Origin: Thalassobaculum sp. OXR-137
GTDB taxonomy: Bacteria; Pseudomonadota; Alphaproteobacteria; Thalassobaculales; Thalassobaculaceae
Reading direction: 5' to 3'
DNA: 64,000 nt
NCBI RefSeq assembly: GCF_034377285.1
Contig: NZ_CP139715.1
Coordinates: forward strand, 1,596,001-1,660,000
The position numbers and the translations under genes were made by a program. Below are positions 3,979-63,279 of the stretch, piece by piece. Every line of letters begins with the position of its first letter. Position 1 is the first letter of the stretch. The notes under the pieces were generated by a model that saw only the letters and a list, made by a program, of their open reading frames with translations, ran no database searches and was not told where the DNA came from.

Positions 3979-6030
3979 ATGAATGTAGACGTGATCTGGC
4001 TGGTGTTCTGCGCAGGGCTCGTCTTCGTCATGCAGCCCGGCTTCGCCTGTCTGGAAAGCGGTCTGGCCCGGTCCAAGAACAGCATCAACGTCGCCACCAA
4101 GAACGTCGCCGACTTCATCGTCTGCACGTTCTTCTATCTGGTGATCGGCTTCGGCCTGATGTTCGGCGACAGCCATTACGGGCTGTTCGGCGGAAGCCTT
4201 CTGTTCTTCAACGCCCAGAGCGCCGATCTCGTCGCGTTCTTCATGTTCCAGCTCATGTTCTGTGGGACGGCGGCGACGATCATCTCCGGCGCCGTCGCCG
4301 AGCGGATGCCGTTCAAGGCGTATCTGCTGGTCGCGGCACTGGTGTCGCTGATCATCTACCCGATCTTCGGCCATTGGGCCTGGGCCGGTCCGGTTTCCGA
4401 CGGCCGGGGCTGGCTCGCCGAACGCGGCTTCGTCGATTTCGCCGGGGGAACCGTGGTGCATTCGGTGGCCGGCTGGGTCAGCCTGGCGGCGGTCATCATC
4501 ATCGGCCCCCGGATCGGCCGCGAGGGACGCAGCCGGGTCGCCTTCCGCAGCCACAGCCTGCCGCTGGCGACCCTGGGTATGTTCCTGATCTGGTTCGGCT
4601 GGATCGGGTTCAACGGCGGCAGCCTGCTGACCGCCGACGAACGGGTGCCGCTGGTCGTCCTCAACACCATGGTCGCCGGATCCATGGGCGGGCTCGGCGC
4701 CATTATCGTGGGCTATTGGCGCGGCGGCCGCGTCGAGGTGGCGGACCTGATCAACGGCTGCCTCGCCGGCCTTGTGGCGATCACCCCGGCGGCCCATTGC
4801 GTCAGTGTGGCCAGCGCCGCCCTGTTGGGCTCCATCGGGGCGGTCTTCTGCCTGTTCGCCTGCGAGGTGATCCGGAAGATGGGGATCGACGATGCGGTCA
4901 ACGCCTTCCCGGTGCACGGCGTCTCCGGAATCTGGGGCACCCTGGGGGTGGCGATCTTCGGCGATCTGGCGCTGATCGGTACCGGGCTCGACCGGTTGGA
5001 GCAGTTCGGCGTCCAGTGCCTGGGCATCTTCAGCGCCTTCGTCTGGGCCTTCGGCCTGGGCTACGTCCTGCTGCGGCTGGCCGACAAGGTGGTGCATCTG
5101 CGGGTGCCGGAGGCCTGGGAGCGCATCGGCCTGAACGTCTCGGAGCACGGCGAGTCCACCGACCAGCTCGATCTGCTGCGCCGGATGGACCGCCACCGGC
5201 GCACCGGGGATTTCACGCGGCCCATCGAGGTCGAGGCGGATTCCGAGGTTGGCGACATCGCCCGGCAGTACAATCTGGTGCTGGAGCGGCTTTCCGCCGC
5301 CAAGGCGGAGGCGGAGGCGGCCAATGCCAGCAAGTCGCGCTTCCTGGCCTCCATGAGCCACGAGCTGCGCACGCCGCTCAATGCGATCATCGGCTTCTCG
5401 GAGATGATGACGAAGAAGTATTTCGGCGAGCTGGGTTCGTCGAAATACGACGACTATGCCGGCGAGATCCATCGCAGCAGCACGCACCTGCTCGACCTGG
5501 TGAACGAGATCCTGAACATCTCCACCATCGAATCCGGCGGTTACACTCTCAGCAAGTCTCTGGTCGACCTGAAGGCGATCGCCCGGGAAAGCGCGCGGGT
5601 CGCGAGCCAGTCGGCACGGGAGAAGAGCCTGAAGCTGGTGGTGATCGGCGACAACGACGCCCCGCCTCTGGAGGCCGATCCGCGGGCGATGCGGCAGATC
5701 GTGTTGAATCTGGTGTCCAACGCCATCAAGCACACGCAGAGCGGCGGATCGATCACCATCGAGGTCAGCATCGTCGCCGACGTCCACATCCTGTATGTGC
5801 GCGACACCGGCGAGGGGATCGCACCTGACTGGCTGCCGCGCCTGACCGACGCCTTCGCCACCTCCTCGTCCAACCCCTATCTGGCGGAGGGCGGGGTCGG
5901 GCTCGGCCTGTCCATCGTGAAGATGCTGGTGGAACTCCACGGCGGCACCCTGGAGATCGCCAGCACGCTCGGCGAGGGGACGGAGGTCAAGGTGTCCATC
6001 CCCAACACCTGGACGGGAACCATGGTCTGA
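3979..6030 (+). CDS. Ammonium transporter-sensor histidine kinase fusion (Amt-HK)
   Basis: A 683-residue fusion. Residues 1-385 form a full Amt/Rh ammonium channel with the twin pore histidines (H161 in GGTVVHSVAG, H313 in FPVHGVSGIWG), a phenylalanine gate (F94, F211) and the conserved Amt tail GLNVSEHGE. A short linker (400-450) leads to a HisKA domain with H461 in SMSHELRTPLNAIIGFSEMM and an HATPase_c domain with the N box (NLVSNAIKH) and G boxes (DTGEGIAP, GGVGLGLSIVKML). The family is known to sense ammonium through the channel and signal by phosphorylation. ATG was preferred over an upstream in-frame ATG because GCGGGG precedes it and it fits the Amt N-terminus. No response regulator is adjacent, so its target is unknown. 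Confidence 0.93.
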   Translation: MNVDVIWLVFCAGLVFVMQPGFACLESGLARSKNSINVATKNVADFIVCTFFYLVIGFGLMFGDSHYGLFGGSLLFFNAQSADLVAFFMFQLMFCGTAATIISGAVAERMPFKAYLLVAALVSLIIYPIFGHWAWAGPVSDGRGWLAERGFVDFAGGTVVHSVAGWVSLAAVIIIGPRIGREGRSRVAFRSHSLPLATLGMFLIWFGWIGFNGGSLLTADERVPLVVLNTMVAGSMGGLGAIIVGYWRGGRVEVADLINGCLAGLVAITPAAHCVSVASAALLGSIGAVFCLFACEVIRKMGIDDAVNAFPVHGVSGIWGTLGVAIFGDLALIGTGLDRLEQFGVQCLGIFSAFVWAFGLGYVLLRLADKVVHLRVPEAWERIGLNVSEHGESTDQLDLLRRMDRHRRTGDFTRPIEVEADSEVGDIARQYNLVLERLSAAKAEAEAANASKSRFLASMSHELRTPLNAIIGFSEMMTKKYFGELGSSKYDDYAGEIHRSSTHLLDLVNEILNISTIESGGYTLSKSLVDLKAIARESARVASQSAREKSLKLVVIGDNDAPPLEADPRAMRQIVLNLVSNAIKHTQSGGSITIEVSIVADVHILYVRDTGEGIAPDWLPRLTDAFATSSSNPYLAEGGVGLGLSIVKMLVELHGGTLEIASTLGEGTEVKVSIPNTWTGTMV

Positions 6031-6039
6031 TCGCGGGCT

Positions 6040-7839
6040 TCAGCGTCCGGCCGCGTAGCCCTGCATGCCGCGGGCGTTGGCGGCGGCCTTGAGCACATCG
6101 CCGTCCTTGGCCGCGGCGGTCAGCCGTCCCTCGCTCCAGTCGCCGCCGACCTGGAGCTTGTGTCCCTGGGCTTTCAGCGTGTCGATCGTGCGGGCACCGA
6201 ACCGGCCTTCGATGGCGAGCTTTCCGGGATTGCGCGCGCGCGGCCAGAACGATCCCGGGAAGTGCTCGGAATGGAAGGCGGGCGTGTCGATCGCCTCCTG
6301 CAGGTTCATGCCGTGCTCGACATGGTGCAGGAACAGCAGCAGGGACCACTGGTCCTGCTGGTCGCCGCCGGGGGTGCCCCAGACCATGTAGGGGTCGCCG
6401 TCGCGCATGGCCAGCGATGGGGACAGGGTGGTGCGCGGGCGCTTGCCCGGCGCCAGCGAGGTCGCCGCATCGCCGTCGAGCCAGAACATCTGGCCGCGCA
6501 CGCTCATGCAGAAGCCCAGCTCCGGGACCACCGGCGCGCTCTGCAGCCAGCCGCCGGAGGGGGTGCAGGAGATCATGTTGCCGTCGCGGTCGATCACGTC
6601 GATATGGACCGTGTCGCCGCGTGCCTCGCCCATCGGGGTGACCGTCGGCTCGCCCAGGCTCCAGTAGTGGCCGATCTCGCCCGGATCGCCGTCGGCGGCC
6701 AGGGCGGCGGCGATGTTCGGGTTGCGGCCCAGCGGGCTGCCCGGCCGCAGATCGAGCGACGCGGTGTCGCCCATCAGCGCGCGCCGCTCCTTGGCGTAGG
6801 CATCGGACAGCAGCATGTCGGCCGGCACGTCGGTGAAGTCCGGGTCGCCGTACCAGGCCTCGCGGTCGGCGAAGGCGAGCTTGGCGGCTTCGACCACCGT
6901 ATGCACGAATTCGGGGCCGGTGGCGTCCATCTCGGACAGGCCCATGCCGCGCAGCAGGGCGAGCTGCTGCAGCAGCACCGGGCCCTGGCTCCAGAACCCG
7001 CATTTGCACACGGTGTAGCGGCCGTAATCGAGGGTCACCGGATCCTCGTAGCGGGCACTCCACCGGGCGAGATCGTCGCCGGTCATCAGCCCGCTATGGG
7101 CGCGGCCGGAGGAATCGAGCAGGGTCTCGGTGCGGTAGAACCGGTCGATCGCGTCGGCGACCCAGCCCTTGTACCAGATGTCCCGGGCGGTCTCGATCTG
7201 CCGCAGCCGGTCGCCGGACGACGCCTCGGCCTCGTCCAGAATGCGGCGGTAGGTGGCGGCCAGGGTGCGGTTGGTCATCCACTCGCCGACGGCCGGCGGA
7301 TTGCCGTCGTTCAGGTATACCGCTGCGGAGGTCGGCCAGTGGTCGCGGAACAGCGGGGCGACCCGGCGCGCGAACTCGGCGATCTTCGGCAGGACCGGCA
7401 CGCCCTTCTCGGCATACTCGATGGCGTAGGAAAGAACGTCGCGGAGCGACAGGGTGCCGTAATCGGCCAGCAGCTTCAGCCAGCCGTCGAAGGCGCCCGG
7501 CACCACCGCCGGCAGCAGACCGGAGCCGGGGATCAGGTCGAGGCCGAGCTTCTGGAACGCCTCGATCGTGGCACCGGCGGGAGCCGACCCCTGGGCGCAG
7601 AGAACCTGGGGACGGCCGTCCTTGTTGGCGAAGAACACCGCCGGCAGTTCGCCGCCCGGACCGTTCAGGTGCGGCTCGGCCACCTGCAGGGTGAAACCGG
7701 CGGCGATGGCCGCGTCGAAGGCGTTGCCGCCCTTCTCCAGGACCGCCATCCCGGCGGCCGAGGCGAGCCAGTGGGTGGTGGTCACCATGCCGAACTTGCC
7801 CTGGAGTTCCGGGCGGGTGGTGAAGGCGAGCTTGGCCAT
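6040..7839 (-). CDS. Gamma-glutamyltransferase-like Ntn hydrolase, probably cytoplasmic
   Basis: A 599-residue member of the gamma-glutamyltranspeptidase family, which autocleaves at a threonine to expose the catalytic N-terminus and then transfers or hydrolyses gamma-glutamyl groups. The likely nucleophile is T410 in RGDTVHIDVIDRDGN. The small-subunit loops follow in CTPSGGW and GTPGGDQQDQW. There is no signal peptide, so it resembles the cytosolic YwrD-like branch rather than periplasmic GGT. It starts 28 bases after the TRAP permease stop and is the last gene of that operon, which suggests it processes the imported substrate. Substrate specificity (glutathione, other gamma-glutamyl compounds or an unrelated amide) is not determined. 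Confidence 0.88.
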   Translation of the reverse strand: MAKLAFTTRPELQGKFGMVTTTHWLASAAGMAVLEKGGNAFDAAIAAGFTLQVAEPHLNGPGGELPAVFFANKDGRPQVLCAQGSAPAGATIEAFQKLGLDLIPGSGLLPAVVPGAFDGWLKLLADYGTLSLRDVLSYAIEYAEKGVPVLPKIAEFARRVAPLFRDHWPTSAAVYLNDGNPPAVGEWMTNRTLAATYRRILDEAEASSGDRLRQIETARDIWYKGWVADAIDRFYRTETLLDSSGRAHSGLMTGDDLARWSARYEDPVTLDYGRYTVCKCGFWSQGPVLLQQLALLRGMGLSEMDATGPEFVHTVVEAAKLAFADREAWYGDPDFTDVPADMLLSDAYAKERRALMGDTASLDLRPGSPLGRNPNIAAALAADGDPGEIGHYWSLGEPTVTPMGEARGDTVHIDVIDRDGNMISCTPSGGWLQSAPVVPELGFCMSVRGQMFWLDGDAATSLAPGKRPRTTLSPSLAMRDGDPYMVWGTPGGDQQDQWSLLLFLHHVEHGMNLQEAIDTPAFHSEHFPGSFWPRARNPGKLAIEGRFGARTIDTLKAQGHKLQVGGDWSEGRLTAAAKDGDVLKAAANARGMQGYAAGR

Positions 7840-55243: not shown

Positions 55244-56440
55244 ATGCCGTTCACGCCCGCTTCAGACGCTTTGAAGCACATCAAGGTGCTCGACCTGACC
55301 CGCGTCCGGTCCGGGCCGACCTGCGTCCGCCAGCTCGCCGACTGGGGCGCCAATGTCATCAAGGTGGAACTGCCGGAGGCGCTCGAAGGCGGCAACCAGC
55401 TCGGCGGCAAGCGCCATGGCTCGGATTTCCAGAACCTGCACCGCAACAAGCGGGCGATCTCGCTGAACCTGAAGGACCCGGACGGTGTCGCGGTCCTGAA
55501 GAAGCTGGTGGAGAGCGCCGACGTGGTGGTGGAGAACTTCCGCCCCGACGTGAAGACCCGCCTCGGCATCGATTACGAGGCGCTGTCGGCGATCAATCCC
55601 CGCATCGTCTACGCCTCGATCTCCGGTTTCGGCCAGGACGGCCCGTACGAGAAGCGCCCGGGCTTCGACCAGATCGCCCAGGGCATGGGCGGGCTGATGA
55701 GCATCACCGGCCTTGTCGGCCAGGGCCCCGTGCGCGCCGGCATCCCGGTCGCCGACCTCACCGCCGGCCTGTTCGCCTCCATCGGCATCTTCATCGCCCT
55801 GCTGGAGCGCGGCGAGAGCGGCAAAGGCCAGTGGGTGCAGACCTCGCTGCTGCAGGCCATGACCTTCATGCTCGACTTCCAGGCCGCGCGCTGGACCATG
55901 GACGGCAACGTGCCCAAGCAGGCGGGCAACGATCATCCGACCTCGATCCCGACCGGCGTGTTCACCACCACCGACGGCCACATCAACATCGCCGTCGCCG
56001 GCCAGGCGATCTGGAAGCGGTTCTGCACGGCCATCGGCCGCGACGACCTGACCGATCATCCGGACTATTCCACCGGCGAGCTGCGCTCGGCCAACCGCCA
56101 CGCCCTGAACGCGATCATCGACGAGGTGACGCGGAACAAATCGTCGGAGGAGTGGGTCGACCTGTTCAACGAGGCCGGCGTTCCGGCCGGGCCGATCAAC
56201 ACCATCGACAAGGTCTTCCAGGACCCGCAGATCCAGCATCTCGGCATGCAGCGCGGGGTGGACTCCCCCAATGTCGGCCGCCGGATCGACCTGGTGGCCC
56301 AGCCGATCAAGATGTCGCGCACGCCGAGCGAGATCGTCGTCTATCCGCCGGATCCGGGCGAGCAGACCGATGAGATCCTGGCCGAGCATGGCTACAGCGA
56401 GGCGGAGATCGCGGACTTGCGCGCCCGCTCCGTGATCTAA
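55244..56440 (+). CDS. Class III (CaiB/BaiF family) CoA-transferase
   Basis: A 398-residue CoA-transferase moving CoA between carboxylic acids. The likely nucleophile is D171 in RAGIPVADLTAGLFASIG; other family marks are LDLTRVRSGPTCVRQLADWG, VVVENFRPDVKTRLGIDYE and ASISGFGQDGPYEKRPGFDQ. It is followed 39 bases later by an enoyl-CoA hydratase, suggesting a small acyl-CoA catabolic unit. Substrate not defined. Confidence 0.93.
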   Translation: MPFTPASDALKHIKVLDLTRVRSGPTCVRQLADWGANVIKVELPEALEGGNQLGGKRHGSDFQNLHRNKRAISLNLKDPDGVAVLKKLVESADVVVENFRPDVKTRLGIDYEALSAINPRIVYASISGFGQDGPYEKRPGFDQIAQGMGGLMSITGLVGQGPVRAGIPVADLTAGLFASIGIFIALLERGESGKGQWVQTSLLQAMTFMLDFQAARWTMDGNVPKQAGNDHPTSIPTGVFTTTDGHINIAVAGQAIWKRFCTAIGRDDLTDHPDYSTGELRSANRHALNAIIDEVTRNKSSEEWVDLFNEAGVPAGPINTIDKVFQDPQIQHLGMQRGVDSPNVGRRIDLVAQPIKMSRTPSEIVVYPPDPGEQTDEILAEHGYSEAEIADLRARSVI

Positions 56441-56479
56441 CTTCATCCGAACAGACAGAACGCAGGAGTTCCCCAGACC

Positions 56480-57283
56480 ATGGCTACAGCCGAAGCCTCC
56501 GAAAACCGTCTTCTCGTCGAGCGCCGCGGGCGCGTCGGCGTGGTGACCTTCAACAACCCCGCCAAGCACAACGCCATGTCGCTCGACATGTGGCGCGAGG
56601 GCCGCGAGGCGGTCGCCACCTTCGCCGAGGATGACGAGATCCGCTGCGTCGTGCTCACCGGTGCCGGCGACAAGGCCTTCGTGGCCGGCGCCGACATCTC
56701 GAAGTTCGAGAACGAGCGGTCCTCGGTCGAGCATATCGAGGTCTATAACGAGGCGGTTGCCGACTTCCACGACACCGTCCAGAACCTGCGCAAGCCGACC
56801 ATCGCGCGGATCAACGGCTACTGCATCGGCGGCGGCCTCGCCATTGCGCTGGACGCCGATATCCGCGTCTGCTCCGACGACTCGCGCTTCGCCGTGCCGG
56901 CCGCCAAGCTCGGCATCGGCTATGCCTTCGAGGGCGTGCGCCGACTGTACGACATTGTCGGCCCGCAGTTCGTCGCCGAGATCTTCTACACCGCCCGCCA
57001 GTTCGACGCCGAGGAGGCCCGGATCATGGGCCTGGTGAACCGGGTGGTGCCGAAGGCAGAGCTCGACGACGTGCTGTGGTCGATGGCCGACCGGATCGCC
57101 GGCAACGCCCCGCTGTCCGTCCAGGCGGTGAAGGCGTCGCTGATCGAGCTCGCCAAGCCGCAGGGCGACTGGGACCTGTCCCAGCCGGACGAGGCGGTGC
57201 GCAAGTGCTTCGGCAGCAACGACTACAAGGAAGGCCGCACCGCCTTCATGGAGAAGCGGGCCCCCAACTTCACGGCGACCTGA
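56480..57283 (+). CDS. Enoyl-CoA hydratase/isomerase family protein
   Basis: A 267-residue crotonase-fold enzyme. The oxyanion-hole segments KAFVAGADISKFE and INGYCIGGGLAIALDADIRV are present, followed by FAVPAAKLGIGYAFEGVRRL. The usual second catalytic glutamate position (EAxxxGLV) appears as FDAEEARIMGLVNRVVPKAE. AGGAG precedes the ATG. Likely works with the upstream CoA-transferase; whether it hydrates or isomerises is unknown. Confidence 0.92.
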   Translation: MATAEASENRLLVERRGRVGVVTFNNPAKHNAMSLDMWREGREAVATFAEDDEIRCVVLTGAGDKAFVAGADISKFENERSSVEHIEVYNEAVADFHDTVQNLRKPTIARINGYCIGGGLAIALDADIRVCSDDSRFAVPAAKLGIGYAFEGVRRLYDIVGPQFVAEIFYTARQFDAEEARIMGLVNRVVPKAELDDVLWSMADRIAGNAPLSVQAVKASLIELAKPQGDWDLSQPDEAVRKCFGSNDYKEGRTAFMEKRAPNFTAT

Positions 57284-57307: not shown

Positions 57308-57982
57308 ATGACCGCATCCTTCGACGACCTCTACGCCCGTGCCGCCGCCCGCAAGGGCGGCGACGCGGCGCTCGAGGCGCTGCTGGGGACGCCGAAGAGC
57401 GCGGCCGAGCTGGCGGCCATCCCGGACGAACGGTGGCTCTCCGACATGACCCGGCGGATCTTCCAGTCCGGGTTCAACTGGAAGGTCATCGACGCCAAGT
57501 GGGACGGCTTTGAGGCTGCCTTCTGGGGCTTCGACGTGGGCCGCTGCGCTTTGATGAGCGACGAGGATTTGGACGCCCTGGTGTCCGACACAAGGATCGT
57601 GCGCAACGGCGCGAAGATCCGCTCGGTCCGCGAGAACGCCGCCTTCCTGCAGGATCTGGCCGCCGAATACGGATCGGCCGCGAAGTGCTTCGCCGAGTGG
57701 CCTGCCGAGGATTATGCCGGGCTGCTGGAGATGCTGAAGAAGCGCGGGTCGCGCCTCGGCGGCCGGGTCGGGGCGATCGCCATGCGGTTCATGGGCCGCG
57801 ACGGCTACGTCTTGTCGGAAGACGTGGTGACGGCATTGATCCGCGAGGGCGTGGTCGACAAGGAGCCGACCTCGCGCAGGGACGTGGCCGCGGTGCAGGC
57901 GGCGTTCAACGCCTGGGCCGCGCAATCGGGCCGCCCGCTGTCCCATATCAGCCGGGTTCTGGCCTTCGGGGTCGACGCGTAG
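57308..57982 (+). CDS. DNA-3-methyladenine glycosylase I-like protein
   Basis: A 224-residue protein of the Tag family, which removes 3-methyladenine from DNA. Matches include MTRRIFQSGFNWKVIDAKWD and FEAAFWGFDVGRCALMSDED, then IVRNGAKIRSVRENAAFL. It is longer than E. coli Tag and the zinc-binding N-terminal Cys motif is not visible, so it belongs to a divergent branch. It starts 24 bases after the hydratase and is followed by a bidirectional hairpin. DNA repair function is inferred. Confidence 0.82.
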   Translation: MTASFDDLYARAAARKGGDAALEALLGTPKSAAELAAIPDERWLSDMTRRIFQSGFNWKVIDAKWDGFEAAFWGFDVGRCALMSDEDLDALVSDTRIVRNGAKIRSVRENAAFLQDLAAEYGSAAKCFAEWPAEDYAGLLEMLKKRGSRLGGRVGAIAMRFMGRDGYVLSEDVVTALIREGVVDKEPTSRRDVAAVQAAFNAWAAQSGRPLSHISRVLAFGVDA

Positions 57983-58044: not shown

Positions 58045-59214
58045 TTAAACAGCCCTGGCCGGCACGAAATCCATCACCCGCGGGTTCTCGCGCTGCAGCG
58101 GACCGACGCCGAACAGTTCCTGCCACATCACCTCGTGGAAGAAGAACTTCGTCGTGTTCACCACGACCTGCAGGATCACCAGCACGCCGGCCGCGAAGGG
58201 TTGGCCGATGAAGATGTAGTCGATCCCGGCATTGATCGTCGTCACCACCACCCGATAGGTGAAGGCCTTGTACCCAGCCACCGTCGCATGGGTCCAGGCG
58301 TTCTCCACCTTCGGCTCGATTTCGGCATCGATGATCGCCTTCTGGCGGGCGTATTCCTCAAGGCTGACCGTGCCGGATTCCCGCATCACCTCCAGTTGGG
58401 CGAGGCGCTGGGCCCGGTCGGTCACCTTGCCGGTGAAGATCACATCGTCGAACGGGCTGGCGAAGCTCGACCCGCTGGCCAGGGGCATGCGCAGCCCCTG
58501 TTCCACGGCGGGATAGATCGAACTGGCCCAGGCGGCGACCGACTGGACCTTGGCCAGCGGCTCGGGCGCGTCGGCGATGTTGGCGGGCAGCCAGGAGTCC
58601 ATCTCCGATCCGGTGATCGCCACCCCGTTGTCCATGGCGGCGAACTGGTATCGGACGTTCACCGCGTCGTAGCGGTTGGCGACCCGGAACCCGGCCTCCA
58701 CGAAGAGCGGCGGGACGACCAGATCCCGGGCGAGCGCGTAGCTCACCACCGCGTCGTCCACCGGCCGTGTCTTCTCCCCGAATCCGGTGGAGGAGGCGGG
58801 CTGCACCCACATGCAGGAGACGTCCCATCCGCTCTTGTACCGGGTCAGGGTGGCGTAGACGTCACTACGCGCGCAGTCGCTGGCAATGCCCCAGCCATCG
58901 GGATGGGGCAGGGTGTTGACCACGATTTCGACCGTGTCGGCGACGATGCCGTCCTCGGCGCGCACCAGGGTGATATGACGGATCGGACCGTAATCCTCGG
59001 GATTGACCTGGGGGCCGTAGGCCGGCTGGGAGATCTGGGCAAAGCCGATCGCGGCCACCGTGTGCGGTCCGGAGGGCAGCGGGACGTCCTTGCCGGAGAT
59101 GCGCAGCACGTCGTTCACCGTGTCGCCGACGGCGATCGCGGCGGCGGGAGCCGGTATCAGCGCCGCGGCGGCGAGCAGCAGGCCGGCAATGCGGGAGAAG
59201 GTCGGGCCGATCAT
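58045..59214 (-). CDS. Unrecognised exported protein B with DUF2061-like C-terminal membrane module
   Basis: A 389-residue protein I cannot assign. Signal peptide residues 1-26 (IAGLLLAAAALIPAPAAA), then a periplasmic region starting IAVGDTVNDVLRISGKDVPL and containing GWGIASDCARSDVYATL and a second Cys 20 residues on (WDVSCMWV). Later GFRVANRYDAVNVRYQF matches its neighbour. A helical stretch (YARQKAIIDAEIEPKVENAW) leads to a C-terminal two-helix segment (YKAFTYRVVVTTINAGIDYI, then VVVNTTKFFFHEVMWQ) resembling DUF2061. It is a tandem paralogue of the upstream gene, with a four-base start/stop overlap. Confidence 0.85.
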   Translation of the reverse strand: MIGPTFSRIAGLLLAAAALIPAPAAAIAVGDTVNDVLRISGKDVPLPSGPHTVAAIGFAQISQPAYGPQVNPEDYGPIRHITLVRAEDGIVADTVEIVVNTLPHPDGWGIASDCARSDVYATLTRYKSGWDVSCMWVQPASSTGFGEKTRPVDDAVVSYALARDLVVPPLFVEAGFRVANRYDAVNVRYQFAAMDNGVAITGSEMDSWLPANIADAPEPLAKVQSVAAWASSIYPAVEQGLRMPLASGSSFASPFDDVIFTGKVTDRAQRLAQLEVMRESGTVSLEEYARQKAIIDAEIEPKVENAWTHATVAGYKAFTYRVVVTTINAGIDYIFIGQPFAAGVLVILQVVVNTTKFFFHEVMWQELFGVGPLQRENPRVMDFVPARAV

Positions 59215-60395
59215 GACTTCGTCTCCACCGGACGTTCGATGTAGTCGAACTCCACCAGTTCCGAGCCGTCCTTGCGTTGACCGGCGATATAGGAATCCCA
59301 GGCCAGATCGTTGGCGATCTGCGCCATGGAATGGGTCACCACGATGGACGCCGTGATGTAGCCGGAAACCGCCGCACTCACGGTCACGATGTAGGCCAGC
59401 AGATAGTCGACCGAGACCCGAAACAGGTTGAACGAGATCATCTTGGCGACGAGGGTCTGGTAATAGTTCTCCAGCGTCGGCGGCGGTGCTGTGTTGTCCA
59501 CCGCCGCAAAATAGCTGGCCAGGTCGTCCTCGCGGATCACCCCCTCGGCGGCGAGCTCCTGCAGTGCCCGCTTGCGGGCGGCCTTGCTGGCCCTGCCGAC
59601 GGCGCTCGGGTCGATGGTGCCGGTCTCGAGCACCGCCAGAGGCTGGGGCACGGACCGGCCGTGCAGCTTCTCCGCCAGCCGGCCGCGCAGGCCGCTCTCG
59701 AACAGCTCCGAGGTGAGGCCCGCCCAGGCGTTCAGGTCGTTCACGACCGCGTACTTGTCCGGATCCGTCACCACCGTCTCCGGCGACCAGGTGGTCATCG
59801 AGGGGGCCAGGGTGCCGAGCTCCAGCCCGTCGAAATGGTACCGGGCGTCGAGAATGTCGTGGCGGTTCGACAGGCGGAAGCCGACGGTCAACCACTCCTG
59901 CGGCATGGCGTAGCCGCGCTCTGCGGTGAAGGCTTTCGCCGCCTTCCAGGCGTCCGTGCCTCCGGTGACGGGCTGGGCGGTCTCGGTCACGAAATAGCAG
60001 AAGCCGTCCACGGCGGTTCGGTACAGGTTCAGCTTGGCCAGCACGCCGTCGCGCAGGCAGGCATCCGTGGTGCCCCAGCCTTCCGTCACGGAAATGGTGT
60101 TGGTGTTGATCTCGACGATCCCGCGGGCCTTGTCGCCGTTGAACTGCAGCAGAACCGCGTTCTCGATGGTGCCATAGGCGCCGGCCACCCCGGAGACGAT
60201 GGTGTTGTTTCCGAGACCGGCCACGACCCACTCACCCTCCGGCAGGGGCACCTGGCGTCCCTGCAGTTCGGCGTAGCCGGTCAGCGTTTCTCCGACCTCA
60301 AGCGCCAGCGCCGGCATTGACCAGACGCAGAAGGACAGGGCGGCGGCCGCCGCCTGGCCGTGTCGCATAGTACCGTTTAGGCTTATGCGGAGCAT
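59211..60395 (-). CDS. Unrecognised exported protein A, paralogue of the downstream gene
   Basis: A 394-residue protein of unknown function. Signal peptide about residues 1-31 (ending WSMPALA), mature start LEVGETLTGYAELQGRQVPL. It shares with its neighbour the VPLPxG opening, GWGTTDACLRDGVLAKL with a second Cys exactly 20 residues after the first (DGFCYFV), and GFRLSNRHDILDARYHF. The C-terminus (KMISFNLFRVSVDYLLAYIV, then VTHSMAQIANDLAWDSYI) again looks like a DUF2061-type two-helix module. GTGGAG precedes the chosen ATG; a second ATG nine codons on has no ribosome site. Probably co-transcribed with protein B. Confidence 0.85.
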   Translation of the reverse strand: MLRISLNGTMRHGQAAAAALSFCVWSMPALALEVGETLTGYAELQGRQVPLPEGEWVVAGLGNNTIVSGVAGAYGTIENAVLLQFNGDKARGIVEINTNTISVTEGWGTTDACLRDGVLAKLNLYRTAVDGFCYFVTETAQPVTGGTDAWKAAKAFTAERGYAMPQEWLTVGFRLSNRHDILDARYHFDGLELGTLAPSMTTWSPETVVTDPDKYAVVNDLNAWAGLTSELFESGLRGRLAEKLHGRSVPQPLAVLETGTIDPSAVGRASKAARKRALQELAAEGVIREDDLASYFAAVDNTAPPPTLENYYQTLVAKMISFNLFRVSVDYLLAYIVTVSAAVSGYITASIVVTHSMAQIANDLAWDSYIAGQRKDGSELVEFDYIERPVETKS

Positions 60396-60435
60396 GGGTT
60401 TAACTCCACAAAGTTGAGTGGGAATCACGAAAGAA

Positions 60436-60460
60436 CCCATCGGACAACCTGTCCGATGGG
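60436..60460 (-). terminator. Stem-loop between the small membrane protein and protein A
   Basis: CCCATCGGAC and GTCCGATGGG form a perfect 10-base stem with a 5-base loop; on the minus strand it is followed by TTCTTTC. It comes six bases after the small gene's stop and probably terminates or attenuates transcription into the paralogue pair. Confidence 0.65.
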
Positions 60461-60466
60461 CCGATA

Positions 60467-60931
60467 CTACTGTTGCAGCATGACAACCGTGTTGGTGGTT
60501 TCCATCGGGCCGGTGGCCACCTTGTCGGGAGCCGGCTCGGAGAAGATGTACAGCCCGCTGATCAGGCCGAGGGCCATGCCGGTGACGGCACCGACCAGCC
60601 GCGGCTGCAAGACGGTGTAGGTGCCGGCGGTGGTCAGCGCGCCGTCGATGGCGCCCGCCGTCGCCGTGTATCCGGCCGCGACCGTCGCCGGTGCGGAGAA
60701 GACCGGGGTCAGCGCGCCGTTCACCGCACCCGCCGTGGCGGCATAGGCGGAGCCGACGGCCGGGGCCACGGCCGGCAGCACGTAGGGCAGGCCATAGGCG
60801 CCGATGATCGTGCCGGCCAAGGTGAGCGCGAAGGTCTGCGCCAGGGTGGTCGTGGTGTCGGCGGAGGCCGGTCGGGCAACGCTCAGAAGGGCGACAAGCG
60901 CCAAGCTGGAAACTGAAAGAGATCGCCGCAT
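60467..60931 (-). CDS. Small Ala/Gly/Thr-rich exported membrane protein, unrecognised
   Basis: A 154-residue protein without a recognised family. Signal peptide (SLSVSSLALVALLSVARPAS, then ADTTTT), a first helix TFALTLAGTIIGAYGLPYVL, a repetitive small-residue middle with an internal repeat (YAATAGAVNGAL and YTATAGAIDGAL), and a last helix VGAVTGMALGLISGLYIFSE near the C-terminus. Two ATG codons are adjacent; the second is better spaced from GGGGG. It is upstream of the paralogue pair on the same strand and separated by a terminator-like stem-loop. It could be a pore or scaffold partner, but that is speculation. Confidence 0.8.
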   Translation of the reverse strand: MRRSLSVSSLALVALLSVARPASADTTTTLAQTFALTLAGTIIGAYGLPYVLPAVAPAVGSAYAATAGAVNGALTPVFSAPATVAAGYTATAGAIDGALTTAGTYTVLQPRLVGAVTGMALGLISGLYIFSEPAPDKVATGPMETTNTVVMLQQ

Positions 60932-61085
60932 CATGTCCCCCAAAAATCTGGCCGTTCTGGCGCGCCGAGCAGTCCGTCACGACGCTATCCGGTGCTTTTT
61001 ACCAGTATGCGCGGAGGTTTGTCCGGGAGCAATTCAATTTGAGAATCGTCGCCACGGGCATCGGCAGCGCGGGGTCGCCTCCGGC

Positions 61086-63158
61086 TCAGGCCTCGGCGTC
61101 GAGAATAAGCTGGGACAGGGCACGCGGGGCGATGTCGGAATCGATCAGCGCCGGCGCCGCGGCGGTCAGCTGGCGCCGCAGATCCTCCGTCCTCTCCCGG
61201 TCTCGGGCGATGTCCAGGCATCGGGCCACGTAGTCCTCTGCGGAGGTGGCTTCGAGATCCGAGCGCATCCCCATGGCGATCAGCGGGGACAGCGTCACGC
61301 GCCCCCGCATCATGTCTGTCGGATAGGTCACCAGCGGCTGGCCGAGCGCCAGACTCTGCATCGAGGTGTTGCCGCCGTTGAAGTGAAGGGTATCGAGCAC
61401 GACGTCGGCCTGCAGCATCACCCCGAGATAGCGGTCCAGCGGCAGGCGCGGCAGCAGACGGATCTGATCCATGATCCGCGGCCGGTCCGCGTTGGCGCGC
61501 GCCAGCCTCTCGAGTAGCCCCTTGGTCATGTTGCTGTAGACACCCGGCGCGTCGAACAGCGCGAGGGTGCCGGCCGGATCCTGCTCCAGGATGTCCCCCA
61601 GCATCCGGTCGAAAGCCGGGTGCATCTTCAACGGCGTCTGGCCGCAGAGATAGATCGCGCCGCTCTCCGGAAGGCCGACTTCGCTTCGGGAAACGGGCGT
61701 GTGCCGGGTCCGCTCTTCGGCATAGGCGATGGCCAGACCGTCCACCAGGACCGGCGTCTCCGAATAGTGGTCGCGACAGTTGTCCGGCTCCATCCAGGCC
61801 GAGGTGAAGAACTGGTCCACCGTGTCGATGCCGGTGGTCACCGGATGTCCCGGCAGCACAATCTGCTGAGGAGCCAGCCGGGCGAAGGGCAGGAAGTAAC
61901 TCATCGCCGTCATGCCGATATCGGCGAAGACGATGCTGTCCAGTTCCATCTCGGCCAGCCGGGCACGGACGGTCTCCAGCACGGATGGGAGGACGACGAC
62001 TCGGTCCACCAAGCGCGCGATCTTGTCATGCATCGGCGGCGGCAGCGTCCCGATCTGTACCACCGTCACGTCGATCTCGTCCCGGTCGATCATCCGCAGA
62101 TGACCCTCGGTCATGTTGTAGATCGAGTGATCGCGGAAGAACTCCGACACGAAGGCGACCCGGCGCTTTCCCGGCCGCCGGCGCCGGCCGATATGGGGCG
62201 CCGTCATCGTCAGCATCGGGCAGGTGCGCCGGTAGAAGGCGCAGAGATCCATGAGCAGATCCCGGTCGTTGATGCCGTGATAGCCGAGCGCGAAAGGGAC
62301 CGTGCCCACCTCCTGGATCGGATCCCGGATCGGGGCGAAGCCCTCCCGCGTGCACAGATCGCGGATCCGTGCCCGGATCTGCCACATCTCGTCTTCGGAC
62401 ATGGTGATATGCGGCAGCAGGGTCGCGGCTCGGGCGGCGTGGCCTGCATCGCGCGGCCGCAGGATGGACGCCGCCTCGGCCATGTGCCGTGCTTCGTCGA
62501 AGTTCGACAGCCGGTAGGCGCTGACGGCGCCGGTAACCCAGGCCTTCGGATCGTGGGGGGCGGTCGCCAGGGCGCGGCGCGCCAGGGCCAGGGCCCGCTC
62601 GGGATGGCCGAGAGATCGGTGAACCTCCGCCAGAACCAGCGTCGCCTCATGGGCCATCGGGTTGATCACCGAGGCGCGCCGGGCGAGATCTTCCGCGCGC
62701 TCGATCTCGTCCCTGGCGAGCCGGCAAACCCCGGCGAGGACGAGATAGGCGGGTTCCACCGGCGCCAGGATGGCGGCCCGGACCCCGTTGTCCCCGGGCG
62801 AGCCGAGCGGCGCCGCCGCCAGGACGGCGTAGGCCCGCGCCAGATCGGGCTGCGCCGCCAGCGCACGCCGGATGCGCTGCGGCGGAATGCCTGCCTCCGG
62901 CGGCAGAGCGATGGCCTGGAGCACATGCTCCATTGTGTACGGATCGAGCGCGAAGACCTGGCGGAAATGGCGTCCGGCCGCTTCAAGGAGGCCGATTCGC
63001 CCCTCGATCGCCGCCAGAAGTTGAAGAGGGCCGACGGAGTCGGGCATCGCCAGAACGAGCCGCCGCAGATCGACGGCGGCCTCGGCCAGGCGGCCCTCAT
63101 TCAGGCGGCTTTGTAGCCGTCTGGCGACACTGGCGATGGGCAGCGCGGTTCCGCTCAC
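61086..63158 (-). CDS. TPR-containing OGT/SPINDLY-like glycosyltransferase
   Basis: A 690-residue protein. The N-terminal half is made of TPR-like helical repeats (LVLAEVHRSLGHPERALALA, AEAAVDLRRLVLAMPDSVGP). The C-terminal half is a GT-B domain like bacterial relatives of O-GlcNAc transferase: KRRVAFVSEFFRDHSIYNMT, QIVLPGHPVTTGIDTVDQFF and the donor-site segment DTLHFNGGNTSMQSLALGQP followed by LVTYPTDMMRGR. Such enzymes glycosylate proteins (for example flagellin or surface proteins) or surface polysaccharides. The GTG start follows GAAGGAAG. It is divergent from a sugar-aminotransferase-type gene, so a glycan locus seems to begin here. Confidence 0.85.
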   Translation of the reverse strand: MSGTALPIASVARRLQSRLNEGRLAEAAVDLRRLVLAMPDSVGPLQLLAAIEGRIGLLEAAGRHFRQVFALDPYTMEHVLQAIALPPEAGIPPQRIRRALAAQPDLARAYAVLAAAPLGSPGDNGVRAAILAPVEPAYLVLAGVCRLARDEIERAEDLARRASVINPMAHEATLVLAEVHRSLGHPERALALARRALATAPHDPKAWVTGAVSAYRLSNFDEARHMAEAASILRPRDAGHAARAATLLPHITMSEDEMWQIRARIRDLCTREGFAPIRDPIQEVGTVPFALGYHGINDRDLLMDLCAFYRRTCPMLTMTAPHIGRRRRPGKRRVAFVSEFFRDHSIYNMTEGHLRMIDRDEIDVTVVQIGTLPPPMHDKIARLVDRVVVLPSVLETVRARLAEMELDSIVFADIGMTAMSYFLPFARLAPQQIVLPGHPVTTGIDTVDQFFTSAWMEPDNCRDHYSETPVLVDGLAIAYAEERTRHTPVSRSEVGLPESGAIYLCGQTPLKMHPAFDRMLGDILEQDPAGTLALFDAPGVYSNMTKGLLERLARANADRPRIMDQIRLLPRLPLDRYLGVMLQADVVLDTLHFNGGNTSMQSLALGQPLVTYPTDMMRGRVTLSPLIAMGMRSDLEATSAEDYVARCLDIARDRERTEDLRRQLTAAAPALIDSDIAPRALSQLILDAEA

Positions 63159-63279
63159 CAGACATCTTCCTTCAAGTAGCGATCCTTCTTGGGGCGGCGG
63201 CCCGAGAAACCGGCTAGATTTAGCGGTGTCGACCGGAGTGATCACCGTGTCTACCACGACACAAAGTTCCAAGAGAACG

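Follow-up and report, generated by a model that had tools for sequence, protein, structure and literature searches.

The genome of the marine bacterium Thalassobaculum sp. OXR-137 (5.65 Mb) contains a conserved, unstudied envelope gene set, composed of two ancient sister proteins and a small glycine-rich membrane protein. The genes, termed here C, A and B in their order on the minus strand, lie within the window, i.e., the whole stretch of 64,000 nucleotides that was analyzed (G000:C1:1596001-1660000), and their features are collected in Table 1. An earlier note, made from the letters of this DNA, had described a three-gene envelope cluster with tandem paralogs. This description holds: the three genes are present, and the order C-A-B was found in a total of eight genomes belonging to two families, in at least four different gene neighborhoods.

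Table 1. Features of the C-A-B locus and its surroundings (positions are those of the window).
Feature	Position	Strand	Remarks
TPR protein gene	61086-63272	minus	glycosyltransferase family 41 domain (Pfam, 48.6 bits); directly upstream of C
Candidate C promoter	61004-61032	minus	TTGCTC-17 nt-CATACT; read by eye, weak
Gene C	60934-60467	minus	155 aa; signal-peptide-like N-terminus; small Gly/Ala-rich membrane protein
Stem-loop	60462-60434	minus	between C and A; 13-pair stem; z -3.57
Gene A	60395-59211	minus	394 aa; signal-peptide-like N-terminus; Cys pair 113/133; divergent DUF2061 hairpin
N-terminal domain of A	59655-60305	minus	residues ~31-247, from the alignment with B
DUF2061-like hairpin of A	59298-59450	minus	residues 316-366; 18.3 bits, E 0.0032
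Gene B	59214-58045	minus	389 aa; paralog of A; Cys pair 114/134; DUF2061 hairpin
N-terminal domain of B	58480-59136	minus	residues ~27-245; possible Mog1p/PsbP-like fold, low-confidence model
SHOCT-like helix of B	58330-58407	minus	residues 270-295; 14.7 bits (cut-off 27), E 0.026
DUF2061 domain of B	58120-58269	minus	residues 316-365; PF09834, 38.6 bits, E 1.4e-9
Methyladenine-glycosylase-like protein gene	57308-57982	plus	PF03352; convergent with B
CoA-transferase family III and enoyl-CoA hydratase genes	55244-57283	plus	adjoining

Gene calls were made by a custom script, not by a standard gene finder. The end of A and the start of B share exactly 4 nt (ATGA), in agreement with the earlier note, and a 4 nt overlap was found in seven of the eight C-A-B loci, with an 11 nt gap instead in G383; these counts depend on the start codons that we chose (TTG in two). 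The B copy of Thalassobaculum litoreum DSM 18839, the nearest named relative, is 84% identical to that of the window. The dN/dS values of C, A and B, as determined against G002 and G003, were 0.10-0.24, showing purifying selection on all three genes. The stem-loop that had been noted ahead of the small protein gene is present, but it sits between C and A, so that A rather than C follows it. T. litoreum has a strong stem-loop as well (z -3.62), whereas the other five relatives compared gave no strong structure (z -0.14 to +0.64); a role as a conserved attenuator was dropped, as the structure recurs in one of the six relatives tested. Neither a terminator in the C-A-B region nor a promoter upstream of C came out of a pattern scan. 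The candidate promoter in Table 1 shows equal spacing in G002 and G003, as judged by eye. The TPR/glycosyltransferase 41 gene upstream of C is found in T. litoreum too and is absent from this place in G003.

A and B are 26% identical over 358 aligned positions (BLASTP, 109 bits, E 4e-31). Both begin, by reading, with a signal-peptide-like N-terminus, followed by the opening VG(D/E)T...VPLPxG, and both contain a GFRxxNRxD motif and a GWGxxxxC motif followed by 19 residues and a second Cys, so that the two Cys stand 20 positions apart; the earlier note had read all of these correctly. The Cys pair represents the sole Cys outside the presumed signal peptide in 15 of 15 A/B proteins (eight A and seven B, excluding the broken B of G026), and a periplasmic disulfide between them is plausible from this pattern. 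A C-terminal module resembling DUF2061 had been proposed for both proteins. B carries a genuine DUF2061 domain, whereas the hairpin of A falls below the Pfam gathering cut-off for PF09834 (23.1 bits). The hairpin ends with NDLAW in A and HEVMW in B. In 13 of 15 pairs the upstream gene has ND..W or YD..W and the downstream gene HE..W, a pattern that was defined only after the motifs had been inspected; the exceptions are G809c, with HE in both genes, and G216, with neither motif.

B also has a short helix before the hairpin that resembles SHOCT (PF09851) and misses the Pfam cut-off (14.7 versus 27 bits); it is followed by the membrane hairpin, whereas in SHOCT proteins the domain is C-terminal. 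One relative of the N-terminal domain, L092, has SHOCT above the cut-off (29.3 versus 27 bits). A SHOCT domain would hint at oligomerization, but according to its describers initial experiments do not support this (PMC3581485). C gave no significant match in Pfam or NCBIfam, and NCBIfam matched nothing meaningful in A or B either. PHROGs gave no match, the PADLOC models of known anti-phage defense families matched none of the three proteins at E 0.1, and neither a plasmid search with B nor a phage search with A yielded a match. The description of the proteins as unrecognized is thus valid for the N-terminal domain, which no library searched names, but not for B as a whole, given its DUF2061 domain above the cut-off.

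Gene C encodes the small repetitive membrane protein that had been noticed ahead of A and B. The protein is Cys-free, hydrophobic and rich in Gly and Ala, with a Sec-type N-terminus by reading, and its mature part has two strong hydrophobic stretches (residues 35-53 and 113-131). It also has an internal repeat, which is missing from the shorter C relatives. In G018, a second C-like gene is located downstream of B (L024, 6532-6852, minus strand), so that C stands on both sides of the pair. G307 has a C relative with expanded glycine repeats, without A and B (L128, 5540-6016, minus strand); this gene occupies the same site, with the same neighbors, as the C-A-B of G383, a genome of the same genus. 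A C match in G408 was taken as false, since it lies inside a 430-codon multi-helix frame read as an ion antiporter.

To describe the distribution of the gene set, we used profile A3, consisting of 14 rows of A and B. Nine of the 36 genomes of the order were matched: seven have A as well as B, and in the remaining two the match is confined to the DUF2061 part. The C profile matched the same seven of the 36 genomes, all arranged C-A-B, so that the co-occurrence check proposed in the earlier note gave a positive result. In one of the seven, G026, B is broken between two frames (L026, G026:C19:95227-96370), by either sequencing error or decay. Among 385 genomes sampled evenly from the class, A3 matched 49, many in the DUF2061 part alone; the full layout with DUF2061 was found in G000, G002 and G383 (C-A-B), in G086 as a single protein, and in G216 as a pair with degenerate ends. 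The C profile matched six of the 385, namely G000, G002 and G383, more weakly G307 and G086, and G408; the C-like gene of G086 is located elsewhere in the genome. Within the seven-genome family of G383, one genome has C-A-B and one has C alone.

In a third family, that of G086, 26 of 82 genomes were matched and 15 loci were read. G797, G808 and G809 each have an A-B pair whose genes overlap by 1 nt, and downstream of the pair lie two small exported-looking Gly/Ala-rich membrane proteins. The C profile misses these small proteins at its threshold, and hhalign gave a probability of 46% (p 0.0002) for one kind (sm2) against C and 1.6% for the other; they therefore correspond to C in layout, and a shared origin is at most hinted at. 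Of the 15 A-B pairs compared for the end motif, 10 are adjoined by small Gly-rich exported-looking membrane proteins. At five of the 15, a custom filter found no small low-charge exported-looking neighbor; it found none beside the two pairs of G823, the pair of G825 or the second pair of G809, and one G823 pair has a small protein of such kind one gene further away. Charged ORFs that the filter also passed, in G018, G797, G808 and G823b, were not counted. In G797 (L188), a tandem DUF2061 protein (6104-6622, plus strand) is divergent from a single A/B-like protein (4892-5842, minus strand). The earlier note had asked whether the homologs always occur singly and without the small protein; they do not, since C-A-B is found in two families and orthologous pairs stand with small proteins in a third.

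In a 24-row tree, the A proteins formed one group (100/100) and the B proteins another (98/99). When the third family was included, the G797 and G809 genes that lie upstream in their pairs joined A (98/95), and those lying downstream joined B (97/95). These separate, supported clades across three families indicate that an old duplication has been retained as a side-by-side pair. The G823 and G825 pairs form upstream and downstream clades of their own, and the G809c pair goes back to a local duplication that took place separately, so that pairing arose or was remodeled more than once. Horizontal transfer, considered for G383 on account of its grouping with Thalassobaculum in the 24-row tree (91/86 for A and 88/67 for B), was set aside, as the fork lost its resolution with the third family.

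The N-terminal domain had no match in any sequence library searched. Elsewhere in Alphaproteobacteria it often occurs without DUF2061, either on its own, in duplicate or combined with a SHOCT-like end, and at least once (G730) outside the class. Judged from these homologs, it is a member of a wider, unnamed alphaproteobacterial family. A structure of B predicted from the single sequence had a mean pLDDT of 35.8 and was discarded; a model from six aligned sequences reached a mean pLDDT of 49 and was used with caution. When matches to the latter model were realigned with VIA-align, PsbP and Mog1p chains came out on top, accounting for 14 of the first 22 rows, with photosystem II chain P counted as PsbP. 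The best match was a cyanobacterial PsbP (Z 7.9, 125 residues, 3.3 Å, B residues 34-238), with a Z below 8, the level that the tool calls trustworthy, and DcrB was aligned with Z 6.0. The Foldseek check suggested in the earlier note did return matches, with GntR effector domains first (best E 0.005), for this model of low confidence. Searches of the PDB by sequence found nothing for B (best E 1.4), and with profiles A3 and A4 the best E values were 0.22 and 0.054, over short stretches. For a relation to DcrB in sequence, hhalign gave a probability of 0.06%, against only three DcrB sequences. Taken together, a Mog1p/PsbP-like fold of the N-terminal domain appears to us somewhat better than an even guess from the model. 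To our knowledge, neither a DUF2061 anchor nor pairing is a feature of PsbP, Mog1p, DcrB or Eag chaperones. For the periplasmic protein PA1624, too, a crystal structure gave only a distant placement in the Mog1p/PsbP-like fold (PMC7716261).

The host genome has four DUF2061 sites above the cut-off, i.e., B, one short protein and two two-hairpin proteins. The single-domain DUF2061 proteins examined end with HER.W, and B resembles them in its HE..W, whereas A is divergent. The ordinary copy of the host is short, with no signal peptide seen, in contrast to A and B, which are exported-looking proteins of about 390 aa with an N-terminal domain, and which form an unequal pair. A PAPS reductase-like gene overlaps with its end the frame of this ordinary copy (L132, 1477-1680, minus strand; C1:665419-665574), which also lies near a ferredoxin reductase-like gene; both neighbors are named by reading, and the setting looks like one of sulfur assimilation. 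The two-hairpin proteins of the host (L134, 1126-1794, and L135, 1351-1911, both plus strand) are exported-looking, with two DUF2061-type hairpins in tandem, and are two of the 20 such proteins that were examined in the bacterial family. They are similar to A and B in their signal-peptide-like N-terminus and DUF2061-type hairpins, but have no N-terminal domain and carry two hairpins per chain, as compared with one each in A and B. The idea that the hairpins of A and B correspond to modules 2 and 1, respectively, of the tandem proteins held for A and failed for B: both hairpins score higher with module 2 than with module 1 (4/4 each), so that a split tandem was not borne out for B.

How these proteins might work together can be outlined as follows. 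We regard it as an evenly balanced question whether C-A-B forms an operon with translational coupling that encodes an obligate A-B heteromer, anchored in the inner membrane together with small glycine-zipper subunits. The constant order, the coupling, the asymmetry and the long retention of both copies suggest an obligate heteromer, and the recurrent small Gly-rich membrane proteins suggest a membrane partner. A and B would be exported, as their N-termini suggest, and oriented with the disulfide-closed N-terminal domain of each in the periplasm, whereas the inner membrane would take up the helical DUF2061 hairpin at the C-terminus. The two would be non-interchangeable paralogs acting as a heteromer, in which B keeps the HE..W end of the ordinary DUF2061 proteins examined and A, having lost it, may serve as a structural partner. 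The role of a small glycine-zipper membrane subunit, packing with the hairpins, may fall to C and, in other families, to its counterparts. By analogy with membrane-associated proteins of the Mog1p/PsbP fold, the periplasmic domains might keep the membrane part stable, assemble it, or bind a ligand at its periplasmic face. Points against a single A-B-C complex are the five of 15 pair loci at which no small neighbor was found, the C without A and B in G307, and the differing origins of the pairs (G823/G825 and G809c). The same holds for the failure of the split-tandem idea for B, the SHOCT score of B below the cut-off, and the low-confidence model behind the fold, for which Foldseek puts GntR effector domains first.

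The association with C-like proteins may also be explained by a role of A and B as periplasmic chaperones or adaptors. Eag chaperones, which share the Mog1p/PsbP-like fold, bind effector transmembrane segments, and two of them, 6xrf and 6xrb, came up when the model was realigned (Z 5.9 and 6.4, respectively). In such a case, the N-terminal domain would cradle the glycine-zipper helices of C at export or insertion, with the DUF2061 hairpin as a tether, which is consistent with the small exported-looking proteins adjoining 10 of the 15 pairs. However, the fold match is weak and not Eag-specific, the N-terminal domain is also found by itself, without a recognized small partner, and C is kept without A and B in G307; we consider the chaperone role, as well as this form of it, unlikely. 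The same G307 locus argues against C being a secreted glycine-zipper bacteriocin-like toxin or antagonist with A and B as immunity or docking proteins, which seems to us highly improbable, even though C is small, exported-looking, rich in Gly zippers and variable in repeat number (expanded in G307), and the immunity proteins Tsi3 and Tli4 are among the weak fold matches. The Cdz-type glycine-zipper bacteriocin of Caulobacter has a double-glycine leader, and type I secretion genes lie next to it. The N-terminus of C, in contrast, is of the Sec type, and the gene calls beside the cluster showed neither a type I secretion gene nor a toxin gene. In addition, the PADLOC models gave nothing at E 0.1, no toxin was recognized by eye beside eight N-domain relatives, and no type VI effector was recognized by eye beside these or the cluster.

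Alternatively, A and B may be redundant copies that stand beside C by descent, without joint action. Although their common layout, the confinement of the module to few lineages and the separate local duplication in G809c are compatible with this, the separate supported clades, the constant order and the asymmetric end motif are not what redundancy would lead one to expect, and small Gly-rich proteins are associated with the pairs in three families, in differing neighborhoods; we therefore give redundancy a minor chance. As for the fold, most of the best Foldseek E-values (0.005-0.02) belong to GntR effector domains, which would make the N-terminal domain UTRA-like and A and B membrane-tethered periplasmic ligand sensors. 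Structural realignment, in contrast, ranks PsbP/Mog1p chains at the top and GntR lower, and neither list has a value passing the stated reliability limits. We judge a UTRA-like sensor quite improbable.

Taking the heteromer further, C-A-B may be an undescribed inner-membrane machine of some Alphaproteobacteria, in which an unequal DUF2061 heteromer assembles glycine-zipper subunits. HE..W would be kept in one partner and lost in the other, each partner would have a Mog1p/PsbP-like periplasmic domain, and the gene for the glycine-zipper subunit would be replaced or doubled in different families. We regard such a machine, in each of these aspects, as conceivable but doubtful; if true, DUF2061 would for the first time be placed in an assembly of several subunits. 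The coupled pair, with HE..W kept in one member and lost in the other, and tied to glycine-zipper proteins, offers a genetic handle on DUF2061. The cluster further marks an unnamed, presumably periplasmic domain family spread across Alphaproteobacteria.

DUF2061 itself is not a characterized domain, and a full-text literature search found no function assigned to it. In the passages that mention it, it appears only as a label in lists of iron-responding or polymyxin-resistance-linked genes: the DUF2061 genes CC_0155 of Caulobacter (PMC3751524) and SO_4740 of Shewanella (PMC12442407) are listed in iron-response tables, and PA3237 is listed from a polymyxin screen (PMC12632274). Nothing connects these genes with C-A-B. 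As regards the iron or Fur link that such papers suggest, no Fur-box-like site was seen by eye above C. A Fur-like gene, named by eye, is located near the cluster in G007, G018 and G026.
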